Source of the DNA: Candidatus Poribacteria bacterium
GTDB taxonomy: Bacteria; Poribacteria; DTPJ01; WJIO01
Direction of reading: 5' to 3'
Assembly (NCBI GenBank): GCA_014730235.1
Contig: WJIO01000383.1
Span: forward strand, 1 to 16,975
DNA length: 16,975 nt
Positions within the stretch are counted from its first letter, which is position 1; each line of letters opens with the position of its first letter. A program made the translations under genes and the position numbers. Below are positions 2,951 through 16,975 of this stretch, piece after piece. The notes beneath the pieces were generated by a model, which saw only the letters and a program-made list of their open reading frames with translations, was not told where the DNA came from and made no database searches.

Positions 2951-3100
2951 ATACTCAGACTGGAATAACCAATTATTTTTGGCTTTTCCGGGTTTAGTGT
3001 TTTAAAGATAAAAAACTTCTATATGCTGTCATTCCTGCGAAAGCAGGAATGACAAGCTGAGAGAATTTTTAATTATAAACACACTGAACATGGAAGAAAC
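2951..3100. repeat. Dispersed inverted-repeat element, copy 1
   Basis: The 2981-3070 stretch aligns without gaps to 7176-7265 (copy 2, offset 4195), with only scattered mismatches. The centre is a perfect hairpin: GTCATTCCTGC (3028-3038), loop GAAA, GCAGGAATGAC (3043-3053). Flanking inner arms oppose each other: 2979-3000 (TTGGCTTTTCCGGGTTTAGT...) and 3080-3099 (ACACACTGAACATGGAAGAA). A third arm-like stretch at 2951-2972 (ATACTCAGACTGGAATAACC) faces the left arm, giving a second smaller palindrome. The right arm ends one base before the DUF1844 stop codon. The outer arm of copy 2 is absent here. Confidence 0.85.
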
Positions 3101-3517
3101 TTATTTTTCTTCTTCAGCCTTTTTTTCAGTATCATTTTTTTCGCTTTCAGAACCTGTCCCTTCAGAATCTTCAGGTTTTGATTCCGCTGGCTTTTCTTTT
3201 TTGGCTTCTTCGAAACTTTTGGCAACTCTCAAATAATTCATCCTGAGTTCATATAAAATATTTTCGAGTAAATTGCTTTCCGGTGCTGTTGTATTTCCCT
3301 TTGTTTTTTCCTGGATCATAACCATAGTATCAATAGTATGACGGGCCAGTTGGAGATTTCCAACAATTTCACCGGATTCCGGATCCTGGTGACCCATGTG
3401 TATAAGAGCTGTATTATACAAACCCAGGATAAAGTTTTCAAAAGTAACAGGTGGTAATTCAAATTCCTGTTCCTGCTCAACATTTTGATTTTCACCATTA
3501 GTTTTTTCTTCAGCCAT
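3101..3517 (-). CDS. DUF1844 family protein
   Basis: A small cytosolic protein of 138 residues. The conserved core, about residues 20-103, has the family pattern LPPVTFENFILGLYNTALIH..., then ELARHTID-like NLQLARHTIDTMVMIQEKT, then KGNTT and LLENILYELRMNYL. This matches DUF1844 (PF08899) as I know it; the biochemical role of the family is unknown. The core is flanked by a Glu/Gln-rich N-terminus and a highly charged Lys/Glu/Ser tail (~105-138) that is probably disordered. The ribosome-binding site GAGGAGG, 8 nt before the ATG, overlaps the end of hisG's downstream spacer. The gene starts 18 nt after hisG, so the two are very likely co-transcribed. The stop codon abuts repeat copy 1. Confidence 0.85.
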   Translation of the reverse strand: MAEEKTNGENQNVEQEQEFELPPVTFENFILGLYNTALIHMGHQDPESGEIVGNLQLARHTIDTMVMIQEKTKGNTTAPESNLLENILYELRMNYLRVAKSFEEAKKEKPAESKPEDSEGTGSESEKNDTEKKAEEEK

Positions 3518-5683: not shown

Positions 5684-7036
5684 TTATAAACCTATTTGCT
5701 TTTCGGATTCCTTATCGTCTTCTTCTTTAACTTCTGGTTTTTTCACCATTATATTAGTTATTATTTGTTTATCCAACCCACTGATTTTAAATTCCACGTC
5801 GTCTACTTTTACCACTTCTCCACCTTTTGGAATACTTCCCAGAAGTTGTAACAAATAACCTCCGATAGTATCTATATCTTCATGAATGGGAAGGTTAAGT
5901 CCGAGCTTCTTATTGATCCTTCTCACACTTATGCCGCCGGAAACCATTACGGTTAAGTCGTCAATAAACCGGAAATCTTCTACATCATCATCATATTCAT
6001 CTGTAATTTCCCCCACCAATTCCTCAACCAGATCTTCCATGGTTACAAGTCCTGCTGTACCTCCGTATTCATCCAGCAGTATAGCAATCTGAACCCCTCG
6101 GGATCGCAGATCCTGGAGTAATCCTATGGCCGTCCTTGACTCAGGAACAAAAAGAGGTTTTCTGATTAATGTGTCTTTTTCTCGTTCCCATAATTTTTGG
6201 CGATTTTCCATAAATTTCTTTATTGTCATATTCATTATATCATGATGACGCCATATGGAAAAATCCCTTATATATAGAATACCAAAGATGTGATCCACAT
6301 CATCCCTGTATACGGGGATTCGGGAACGACCAGCTTCACGAGCTAAATCAAAAATGTCCTGTAAAGTTTCTAATTCTGAAGCACACACCATCTCAGTTCT
6401 GGGAACCATAATCTCTGCGGCGGTTATGTTTCTCAAATCAAAAATAGTGTCCAGCATATCTTTTTCGTGACCTTTGATTGATCCTTCTTCTTCCGCTGCT
6501 TCTATCATGGCTTTTAATTCTTCAGTAGTAAATCTATCCTCTATTGGAATACTTTCACCGGCAATTAAACGCATGATAACATTGGTTGTTGTTCTGAGAA
6601 CTATTCTTAGTGGAAAGATAATATATGAGAAGAGAAGTATCGGATATGAGATTGTCCGCGAGATTGTTTCTGCATTATGTACTGCAATAGTCTTTGGAGT
6701 CACCTCGCCAAAAATCAAAAGTAATACAGTGGTAACAAAAACAGCAACACCTGCACCCTGATTTCCCAGAAGGTTAGTGGCAAAAGAGGCGATCAGGCTG
6801 GCTGATGCCACATTAACAAACATATTGCCCACGAGGATTGTTATGAGTAAACGGCGCGGATTGTCCAGAAGCTGCGCGACGATATTGCCGCTTCTGCTGC
6901 TTTCCTGTCTAAGCCTTTCCACCTGGATTTTACTGAGGGAAAAAAGCGCTGTTTCAGAACCAGAGAAAAAAGCTGACAAAAACAGCAGAAAACCCAAACC
7001 TGCGAGATGAAGGGCTATTGAAATGGCACTAAACAT
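5684..7036 (-). CDS. CNNM/CorC-family membrane protein (DUF21-CBS-CorC_HlyC), paralog 1
   Basis: First gene of the leftward cluster; 450 residues. A DUF21 domain with hydrophobic segments at about 8-28, 65-90, 98-115 and 130-155 contains [11 protein letters not shown] (23-33) and GEVTPKT (110-116). CBS repeats follow at about 205-340 (MVPRTEMV, SRIPVYRDDVDHIFGI, DEYGGTAGLVTMEDLVEEL). A CorC_HlyC domain is at about 355-432, then a charged Lys/Glu tail. The family includes bacterial Mg2+/Co2+ resistance proteins and probable Na+/Mg2+ antiporters, so a cation-efflux or homeostasis role is inferred. AAAGG lies 8 nt before the ATG, and a strong sigma-70 promoter sits ~50 nt upstream. It is clearly related to the next gene, pointing to an old tandem duplication. 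Confidence 0.9.
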   Translation of the reverse strand: MFSAISIALHLAGLGFLLFLSAFFSGSETALFSLSKIQVERLRQESSRSGNIVAQLLDNPRRLLITILVGNMFVNVASASLIASFATNLLGNQGAGVAVFVTTVLLLIFGEVTPKTIAVHNAETISRTISYPILLFSYIIFPLRIVLRTTTNVIMRLIAGESIPIEDRFTTEELKAMIEAAEEEGSIKGHEKDMLDTIFDLRNITAAEIMVPRTEMVCASELETLQDIFDLAREAGRSRIPVYRDDVDHIFGILYIRDFSIWRHHDIMNMTIKKFMENRQKLWEREKDTLIRKPLFVPESRTAIGLLQDLRSRGVQIAILLDEYGGTAGLVTMEDLVEELVGEITDEYDDDVEDFRFIDDLTVMVSGGISVRRINKKLGLNLPIHEDIDTIGGYLLQLLGSIPKGGEVVKVDDVEFKISGLDKQIITNIMVKKPEVKEEDDKESEKQIGL

Positions 7037-7116: not shown

Positions 7117-7132
7117 TTCTTTATAATCCGAG

Positions 7133-7328
7133 CCAAGTATAAAATTTATGTCCGTGTGTTATTGCGATAAAGTTTGGTTCTTCCTGGTTCAGTGTGTTAA
7201 AGATAAGAAACTTCTATATGCTGTCATTCCTGCGAAAGCAGGAATGGCAGGCTGAGAAAATTTTCAAATTATTACCATACTCAAACCGGAAGAGCCAAAA
7301 TTTTCACGAACATAAATTTTATACTTGG
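7133..7328. repeat. Dispersed inverted-repeat element, copy 2 (most complete, MITE-like)
   Basis: This is a ~196-bp nested imperfect palindrome. Outer arms 7133-7156 and 7305-7328 are inverted copies matching at 23 of 24 positions (CCAAGTATAAAATTTATG...). Inner arms are 7174-7200 and 7273-7299 (TTGGTTCTTCCTGG... against TTTGGCTCTTCCGG... on the other strand). The centre is the hairpin 7223-7248, GTCATTCCTGC-GAAA-GCAGGAATGGC, with one G.T pair. A TAATCC hexamer occurs on both sides (7124-7129 and 7329-7334) and might be a target-site duplication, though three extra bases intervene on the left. There is no coding capacity; it fills much of the CNNM-secD divergent spacer. Confidence 0.88.
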
Positions 7329-7357
7329 TAATCCTAATCTGATTTAGAGATTTTGCG

Positions 7358-7542: not shown

Positions 7543-10035
7543 ATGAATAAAATCAGTAAATGGAAACTCGGGCTGATTATAGCTGTCTTTGTATTTTCGG
7601 TATTATATCTATTACCTACAATACCGGGAATTTATGGCCGTTTATACGGTTACTTTGATATATGGATGCAGGGGAAGATTCCCCCGCCGGATATACAAAC
7701 AGAACGAAATAGTAATTATATCAGGTTTGTTATTCCTGATGATTTGCCCAAAGGCATTAGTTCCCAGGACGCATCCAAATCAATAAAAGATCTTGTGAGA
7801 AGAAGATTAATCAATCTGGGAATTGATGAAGTTTTGGAATTAGAATCTACACAGGAGGTAACTTCTGAAAAACAACTTACAGGTTTTAGTTTTGAAGATG
7901 TTATAATCACTAATCTATATATAGATTTTCTTCAGCCCAGAAGTAAAGCAGAACTGGAAGATATAAAACAGAAGCTGAGTTCAATAGTCAGTAGATCTCC
8001 CGCTTTACCAACAGGAAAAAAGCAGGGAAGTATTAAGCTGGTTATCTCTAAGAATGATATTCCTGATGGTAAAACTCAACAGGAAGGTGTCAAAGAGATC
8101 AGGGAAAAAGTAACAGAAATATTGGAAGATATGGAGATAAAACCGGGTGATAACTTCCGCTTTGATTCTAATGCCGGAAGTGAAATATACGTTAAATTTA
8201 CCCCACCGAAAAGCGCTCAAGAAATAAAAAAATTGATAAATAAGATGTCTCTTTACGGAAATATCCCCCTGGCACTAAGACCTATTTTCCCGGACAATCC
8301 GTTAAAGCAGGGATTGGATTTAAAAGGTGGTTTGCATATCGTCCTGGAACTTGACGTCAAGAAAGCCATGGATATATATCTCAGTGACCAAGCTCAGGAA
8401 GCTATTCTTAGTACATTAAAACGCGAAAAGATATTCTGTAGATCAATCGAAAAAACCCTGGAACAAACTGATGATTATACCTTTATTGTAAGACCATATA
8501 CAATAGGTGGGGTATCAGTAAGCCAGTCTCAAGCCATATCAGAGATGCGCAATAAGCTTATTGAAGCCGGTTTTGATTCCAGTGAAATTAACGACACCTC
8601 GACAACAGATAATCCCCAACTAACAGTAAAGACAACGGAAAAACAGTATATTGGTGATCTTGTAGATGAATTATTAGGTGGGGATAACCCACTTATAGTC
8701 ACTATTACAATTCCCACCCGATTCCAGGATGCGGATAGAACGGATTATCTGGAAAATGCGGAAAAAACTTTAAGGGATATGGAGCTATTTGACCCTCCCA
8801 AACTTCTAAGATCTGAAGGCAACACGGCCATATATTCAGTCCAGTTAAGCGAAAACAGCGCGCAAAAGCTAGCTGAGGATAATCTGGACACTGTAATGGA
8901 AACCCTGGAAAACAGAATAAATAAGTTCGGTGTTGCTGAATCAACCATAAGACGAATAAGTGGAAGGCCGCGAATACTTATTGAAGTTCCAGAAGAACAG
9001 AATCCAGCCCGTACTCTGGCAGCTATCAAAAGTCCCGGTATTCTGGAATTTAAGCTGGTGCTGAAAAATCCATTAACAGGCAGCTTATGGTACGGTACTC
9101 CGGGTACTCCTGAACCTGCACCGGATGAATTACCTCAGGGTGCTGAGGTTAGATACCATGTGGATGGCGGCTGGTACGTCGTTGGCTCAGAGGCATTTAT
9201 GCACGGCACAGATCTCAAGGGTAATTCGGCAACTGTTGCCAGGGGTCAGCTAGGTACTCCCGAAGTTCTGATGTATATGACATCAGAAGGTCAGGATAAA
9301 TTCTCGGATTTTACCGGTAAGAATGTTGGCGAACATACGGCTATTATGCTGGATGATGTTATTCAATCAGTACCCCGGATCACCGAAAAGATATCATCCA
9401 GAAGCGCAAGGATTACAGGGCAATTTACCACCGAAGAGGCTGACTATTTGGCCAGGATATTGAAAGCCGGGGCTTTCCCTGCTCCAATGAGAAGTGCTGA
9501 GGAGCGTATAGTAGGCCCTACTCTGGGTGAGGAAGCCATTGAAAGGGGAAAGCTTGCTTTTATAATCGGCATAAGTCTTGTCATTGTATTTATGATTATA
9601 TATTACAAGCTTTCAGGGATTATTGCAATTCTGGCTCTTCTGTTTAATTTTGTAATAATACTGGGCATTCTGGCTGGTTTTGGTGCTACTTTGACATTAC
9701 CGGGTATGGCTGGTCTTATTTTGACTGTTGGTATGTCGGTGGATGCAAACGTGCTTATCCTTGAAAGAATACGAGATGAACTGAGAAGCGGTAAAACGGT
9801 TCTTTCATCCATCAGCAGCGGCTATCAAAAGGCTTTCTGGACTATCCTGGATGCAAACATGACAACTCTTCTTACTGCTATCGTCCTATATGAATTTGGC
9901 ACAGGGCCAATAAAAGGCTTTGCGGTGACGTTAGCCGTTGGTATTATTGCCAGTATGTTTACAGCCCTGGTGTTTACCAGAGAAGTTTATAGCTGGATAT
10001 ATAACAGGCGTGGCACAATTAAATTAAGTATATAG
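7543..10035 (+). CDS. secD: Protein translocase subunit SecD, with enlarged N-terminal periplasmic region
   Basis: SecD works with SecF at the SecYEG channel, using the proton gradient to pull exported proteins through the inner membrane. Residues 8-28 form TM1. The hallmark GLDLKGG is at 257-263, the P1 head/base at about 264-650, and five more membrane helices at about 670-820. TM4 carries GMSVDANVLILERIRDELR (730-748), including the conserved Asp. The protein is 830 residues, against 615 in E. coli. The extra length is mainly before GLDLKGG: two related units (about 59-150 and 163-237), each a strand-helix-strand-helix pattern (..IYVKFTPPKSAQEIKKL..). E. coli has only one such unit, as I recall. 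AGGGAG lies 6 nt before the ATG. yajC is not adjacent. Confidence 0.96.
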   Translation: MNKISKWKLGLIIAVFVFSVLYLLPTIPGIYGRLYGYFDIWMQGKIPPPDIQTERNSNYIRFVIPDDLPKGISSQDASKSIKDLVRRRLINLGIDEVLELESTQEVTSEKQLTGFSFEDVIITNLYIDFLQPRSKAELEDIKQKLSSIVSRSPALPTGKKQGSIKLVISKNDIPDGKTQQEGVKEIREKVTEILEDMEIKPGDNFRFDSNAGSEIYVKFTPPKSAQEIKKLINKMSLYGNIPLALRPIFPDNPLKQGLDLKGGLHIVLELDVKKAMDIYLSDQAQEAILSTLKREKIFCRSIEKTLEQTDDYTFIVRPYTIGGVSVSQSQAISEMRNKLIEAGFDSSEINDTSTTDNPQLTVKTTEKQYIGDLVDELLGGDNPLIVTITIPTRFQDADRTDYLENAEKTLRDMELFDPPKLLRSEGNTAIYSVQLSENSAQKLAEDNLDTVMETLENRINKFGVAESTIRRISGRPRILIEVPEEQNPARTLAAIKSPGILEFKLVLKNPLTGSLWYGTPGTPEPAPDELPQGAEVRYHVDGGWYVVGSEAFMHGTDLKGNSATVARGQLGTPEVLMYMTSEGQDKFSDFTGKNVGEHTAIMLDDVIQSVPRITEKISSRSARITGQFTTEEADYLARILKAGAFPAPMRSAEERIVGPTLGEEAIERGKLAFIIGISLVIVFMIIYYKLSGIIAILALLFNFVIILGILAGFGATLTLPGMAGLILTVGMSVDANVLILERIRDELRSGKTVLSSISSGYQKAFWTILDANMTTLLTAIVLYEFGTGPIKGFAVTLAVGIIASMFTALVFTREVYSWIYNRRGTIKLSI

Positions 10036-13552: not shown

Positions 13553-13637
13553 ATTTTTTTGGAACTTTCCGCTTTGAGTGTGGAAATGTAAAAAACATCC
13601 TCTTTTTGTCATTCCCACCTTTGCAGGAATGAGGAAT
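13553..13637. repeat. Dispersed inverted-repeat element, degenerate copy 3
   Basis: Begins 6 nt after the HIT stop. TTTTTTTGGAACTTTCCGCT... followed by TTGAGTGTGG matches the inner arm of copy 2 read inward. After a ~27-nt spacer comes a decayed form of the central hairpin, TCATTCC (13609-13615) pairing with GGAATGA (13626-13632). No right arm is recognisable. It occupies most of the 126-bp HIT-argS spacer. Confidence 0.55.
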
Positions 13638-16888: not shown

Positions 16889-16975
16889 CCAAGCATAAAT
16901 TTTACATCCCTGTGTTATTGCGAAGAACGGAGTAACAAATAAAGTTTTTAGTCTGTATCAAAATTTTTGGCTCAT
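16889..16975. repeat. Dispersed inverted-repeat element, copy 4 (cut by window edge)
   Basis: The outer arm 16889-16912 matches that of copy 2 at 19 of 24 positions, and both continue with TGTTATTGCGA. Copy 4 then has ~15 extra bases (around 16924-16938, AGAACGGAGTAACAA), after which ATAAAGTTT resumes. The window ends in TTTTTGGCTCAT, which looks like the start of the inner arm (TTTTGGCTCTTCC in copy 2). The extra bases with the preceding GTTATTGCGA form a weak REP-like stem. Confidence 0.7.

Follow-up and report, generated by a model that had tools for sequence, protein, structure and literature searches.

A 196-bp intergenic palindrome in a Candidatus Poribacteria genome: a probable nest of two MITE families

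The space between a CNNM/CorC gene (start at 7036, minus strand) and secD (start at 7543, plus strand) of a Candidatus Poribacteria bacterium is occupied by a palindrome at 7133-7328 with two pairs of arms, one within the other. This raises the question of whether it is a single mobile element, two elements, or a structure of another kind. The window, that is the whole stretch of DNA analysed, is the entire contig C328 (16,975 bp) of a 5.53-Mb assembly of 451 contigs that is 91.6% complete. Its genes include, by Pfam, rlmN, a DUF1844 gene, CNNM/CorC genes, secDF, a sigma-54 response regulator and an M24 peptidase, and presumably gatB, hisG, a HIT protein and argS, which were named by eye from the translations. 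The outer arms (7133-7156 and 7305-7328) are identical at 23/24 positions (96%), as first described, and the fold, which pairs the element along its whole length, has an energy of -83.9 kcal/mol (z = -12.5 relative to 200 dinucleotide-shuffled sequences). It contains no ORF of at least 90 amino acids. Ten more full-length copies resemble the outer element of the window at 92-97% identity. The inner arms and the GTCATTCCTGC-GAAA hairpin of the preliminary description are likewise present, and the inner ends can be placed exactly, at GG 7176 and CC 7296. The parts of the locus are as follows.

7124..7132, left copy of the 9-bp target duplication, TAATCCGAG, matching the right copy at 7/9
7133..7328, plus strand, outer MITE of the A-type, 196 bp, CCAAG...CTTGG, with the inner element inside
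7133..7156, plus strand, left outer TIR
7176..7296, plus strand, nested inner MITE, 121 bp, with ISL3-like ends GGTTCTTCC...GGAAGAGCC
7222..7250, central hairpin TGTCATTCCTGC-GAAA-GCAGGAATGGCA
7305..7328, minus strand, right outer TIR
7329..7337, right copy of the 9-bp target duplication, TAATCCTAA

Two non-autonomous MITE families have very probably multiplied in this genome, with 7133-7328 as an example of one nested in the other. Both families are new, the MITE itself being a known kind of element, and the nested arrangement is unusual; a small search of the open-access literature found no earlier description of this nest. A genome-wide search with the arms and an alignment of the flanks, as initially proposed, returned numerous copies with sharp boundaries.

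The outer family is defined by the TIR CCAAGYATAAAWTTTAYRTCYSTG. With up to three mismatches allowed, 232 ends (115 + 117) are found in the 5.53-Mb assembly, which corresponds to about 116 element equivalents, and the pattern read backwards, used as a control, gives 0. Paired copies are 163-356 bp in length with a 24-bp TIR. Directly outside CCAAG/CTTGG, a target duplication of 9 bp is perfect in 30 of the 59 measurable, non-overlapping copies and matches at 8/9 in 9 more. Among the other lengths tested, perfect repeats occur in 0-2 cases at 4-8 bp and in none at 10-13 bp, and cross-paired flanks of different copies reach 8/9 in 0.06%. The 9-bp repeats vary between copies and are thus target duplications rather than common flanks. 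Being short, non-coding and bounded by TIRs, with a fixed 9-bp duplication (39/59 at 8/9 or better), the outer copies are MITEs. The duplication in the window matches at 7/9, so this insertion is probably somewhat older. The target duplication earlier suspected from TAATCC on both flanks does exist, at a length of 9 bp, and TAATCC is the surviving part of the 7/9 match.

The ends of the outer family are not entirely uniform. Two copies, at C25:12722-12746 (L012 1479-1503) and C120:4389-4413 (L054 1476-1500), have a doubled left end, in which a second, diverged TIR (CAAAGCATAAATTTCTTGTC...GGAT) lies directly outside the first. A perfect 9-bp duplication brackets the outermost TIR, which indicates that the alternative end served in transposition. 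On C440 (L077 2704-2726), two outer-type ends stand back to back in a 23-bp palindrome, CCAAGTATAAAGTTTATACTTGG, with flanks TTTAATAAA/TTTAATTCA that match at 7/9; this may be an element of minimum size, or a product of joined ends. Many contigs start or finish within an outer element (e.g., L053, L056, L101, L114 and the window at 16889-16975), and it follows that these repeats determine contig boundaries.

The outer family would be moved in trans, now or formerly, by a transposase that cuts with a 9-bp stagger. ISs with 9-bp target duplications include IS4/IS10/IS50, IS1, IS903 and some IS256, and the outer family resembles them in this length and in its TIR of about 24 bp. However, no such IS is known to have CCAAG ends, and the Pfam models for DDE_Tnp_1, Transposase_mut, IS1 and IS1595 gave no gene with such ends. 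They are absent from eight DDE_Tnp_1 loci and from one IS256-type locus, and Pfam models detected no IS1 or IS1595 gene in the genome. Among the matches to PF01609, PF00872, PF03400, PF12762 and PF01797 in this fragmented assembly, none is flanked by CCAAG ends placed as in an IS. A decayed transposase gene on C440 was considered as the partner and rejected, as it merely adjoins an outer copy. No long interior lies behind the unpaired outer TIRs: all but one enter ordinary MITE sequence, and the exception, on C18, is a lone remnant. Neither exact TIR was seen on an autonomous element, and in 0.71 Mb of other contigs no TIR pairs with duplications were present at spacings of up to 5 kb. The outer transposase may be extinct, or hidden in assembly gaps, which form at such repeats.

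The inner family carries the TIR GGYTCTTCCGGGTTYAGTGTGG, with 835 ends (419 + 416) in the assembly and 0 in the control. Its exact ends are GG(T/C)TCTTCC...GGAAGA(A/G)CC, i.e., GG(T/C)TCTTCCGG...CCGGAAGA(A/G)CC. Many copies consist of the inner arms and hairpin alone, with the outer arms absent. Lengths are mostly 120-165 bp, frequently 120, 141 or 161-165 bp, depending on whether the middle hairpin has a four-base loop, a TTCAAGCTTTTTCAAAAAGCTTGAA insert or a longer insert. Solo inner pairs are flanked by a perfect 8-bp duplication in 21/41 cases and by a 7/8 match in 7 more, and none is perfect at 9-13 bp; the 8-bp duplications are AT-rich. These elements, short, with TIRs, occurring alone and with a fixed 8-bp duplication (28/41 at 7/8 or better), are also MITEs.

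Inner and outer arms are combined at a fixed spacing in nearly all outer copies, as would be the case if they were two arm pairs of a single MITE family whose long palindromic ends are modular, and from which inner-only copies arose by deletion. This is very improbable, as deletion cannot produce inner-only copies that stop exactly at GG...CC with 8-bp duplications of their own, whereas those of the outer copies are 9 bp, and the inner ends outnumber the outer ends (835 vs. 232). The two-arm arrangement, first taken as one element, is better read as an inner MITE inserted in an outer MITE. The proposal of an abundant, non-autonomous, MITE-like family holds in each of these three respects, with two independent families of different TIRs and duplication lengths in place of one.

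The most likely mover of the inner family is an ISL3-family transposase with an 8-bp cut. The assembly contains three fragments of ISL3 transposase genes, each cut by a contig end. The terminus of the C342 fragment is GGTTCATCCGGTTAATGCGTAG, a repeat that includes the stop codon of the gene, and that of the C391 fragment is GGATTCATCCGGGAAATG; the tips of both are similar to that of the inner TIR. One fragment terminus, GGTTCATCCGG, is like the inner TIR at 10/11 tip bases, and the tip GGTTC(A/T)TCCGG is putatively shared by the inner family and the C342 fragment. The AT-rich 8-bp duplications and GG-starting ends also resemble those of ISL3 ISs and their derived MITEs, as ISL3 target duplications are classically 8 bp long (PMC7643977). 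This length and the likeness of the tips point to an ISL3-type MITE. Unlike in known ISL3 systems, the exact inner TIR was not found on any complete ISL3 element, and beyond the first 11 bases the likeness is weak (15/22 over 22 bases for the end on C342, where the gene is cut by the contig end). An autonomous ISL3 partner of the inner family would end in GGTTCTTCCGGG.

C228 carries a DDE_Tnp_1 element (L078 1104-2418), some 1.3 kb long, whose ends read ATGTAATCGTTAAAAAATG. Look-alikes of these ends (GTAATCGTTAAAAAATGA) lie beside inner copies on C224, C305 and C43, making a third MITE family likely.

Pieces related to the nest are found at three other places in the window, where the same architecture had been reported. 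They are different things, namely a solo inner element, a decayed inner element and a cut outer element.

2973..2980, left 8-bp target duplication TTATTTTT of the solo inner MITE, 8/8
2981..3100, plus strand, solo inner MITE ('copy 1'), 120 bp, outer arms absent
3101..3108, right 8-bp target duplication TTATTTTT, containing the stop codon of the DUF1844 gene (3101-3517, minus strand)
13561..13637, plus strand, decayed B-type inner element by comparison with other copies; left part with left end, arm and damaged hairpin, right end missing
16889..16975, plus strand, left part of a B-type outer MITE, the rest cut off by the contig end

All of these pieces are intergenic, in agreement with the first description, apart from an overlap at 16889-16896 with a doubtful, upstream-extended start of the M24 peptidase ORF. 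In the 0.71-Mb sample, which consists mostly of contigs not chosen for outer ends and thus undercounts the outer family, 43 of 46 element pairs lie outside ORFs of at least 100 amino acids, compared with 16% of random places. This almost exclusively extragenic position, the very strong folding and the placement of copy 2981-3100 exactly at a stop codon might be expected of functional RNA or DNA palindromes, such as terminators or processing signals, that are kept mainly by selection whatever their origin. It is nonetheless highly unlikely that this is the main explanation. Selection against gene disruption yields the same placement, no Rfam match at the gathering score was obtained in the window, and the many copies of 92-97% identity with intact duplications favour recent spread. 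Individual copies may still act as terminators.

Within the outer copies, the inner element occupies one fixed position, between AAAGTTTT-like repeats. In B-type nests, (G/A)AA(G/T)TTTT directly precedes GG...CC and AAAGTTTT directly follows it, and the two match at 7/8 or 8/8 in register, as expected of an 8-bp duplication. A-type nests, that of the window included, have the left flank TAAAGTTT, one base out of register, a shift that would fit the loss of TTTTTAGTCTGTATCAGAA-like sequence between two AAAGTTTT-like repeats. The flanks of solo inner copies are diverse. On the simplest account, one inner element would have entered an outer element of about 100 bp at a AAAGTTTT-like site, after which the composite would have been amplified through the outer ends, with the inner element carried along. 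The shorter A-type would have followed from this, with some 20 bp probably lost between the AAAGTTTT-like repeats. Composites with flipped or mixed inner arms are present, and recombination among hundreds of similar inner copies would have swapped and flipped these arms. The inner-arm tree is poorly resolved and mixed, and nested copies do not form one clade in it, some rows marked as nested being solo copies close to an outer one. The case for a single founding insertion is thus made from the common site, and recombination must be invoked.

The ancestral outer element without the inner one would read CCAAG...GTATCARAAGTTTTCACGG...CTTGG. A search of the genome for the expected junctions gave no intact element of this kind, just remnants. 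At the contig end C43:1-34 (L165 1-34), the outer left and right parts are joined as AGTAACAAATAAAGTTTTTACGGACATAAATTTT with the inner element absent, which represents either the ancestral empty outer element or a deletion between AAAGTTTT repeats. The nest recalls the “Russian doll” transposable elements of prokaryotes, a concept named in PMC3852290, in that an element lies in an element and each has its own TIRs and duplication. It differs in consisting of MITEs alone and in the amplification of the composite to about 100 copies.

The central hairpin had been likened to REP sequences, and a check for a RAYT gene had been suggested. The hairpin is palindromic, repeated and scattered alone in relatives, and the genome has one Y1_Tnp gene, so that the copies could be envisaged as REP/REPIN sequences mobilized at the GTCATTCCTGC hairpin by a RAYT (Y1) transposase. 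This sole Y1 gene (156 amino acids), however, has no paired hairpins on its flanks. Target duplications of 8 or 9 bp, such as those beside the sharp TIRs of these copies, are not made by Y1 transposition (IS200/IS605); an origin of this kind is extremely improbable. Abundant intergenic palindromes are a feature shared with REPINs and REPs with RAYTs (PMC3116915), from which the present elements differ by their DDE-type TIRs, their target duplications and the lack of RAYT association.

In 38 relatives, of which one belongs to the same order and the others to the same phylum, just the hairpin core recurs, and neither TIR was found as a pair at the relatives' loci checked. The hairpin GTCATTCCTGC-GAAA-GCAGGAATCCA is scattered alone in the relatives G001 and G003 (stretches L062-L073 without L068). 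Such lone hairpins elsewhere in the order and phylum indicate that the core palindrome is more widely spread than either MITE. In scans from which the records nearest to the window genome may have been missing, the exact outer TIR pattern gave one single end in the GTDB contig set, on an Aquimarina contig and without element structure, and none in viral contigs.

The nested reading carries several consequences. With two target-duplication rulers in one genome, it is seen that a MITE can sit within a MITE and multiply with its host element. The nest gives a time order of events and provides a natural test of module exchange among short palindromic elements, and the repeats explain the assembly breaks at these places. 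It is conceivable, though rather doubtful, that the nest is a two-engine unit, whereby a 9-bp transposase would move the whole and an ISL3-type transposase the inner part, with recombination exchanging modules between the solo and nested populations. If so, two unrelated MITE families would evolve as a single linked population. Beyond this lineage both TIRs are all but absent, so the 9-bp family may point to an insertion sequence that has been lost or never described.
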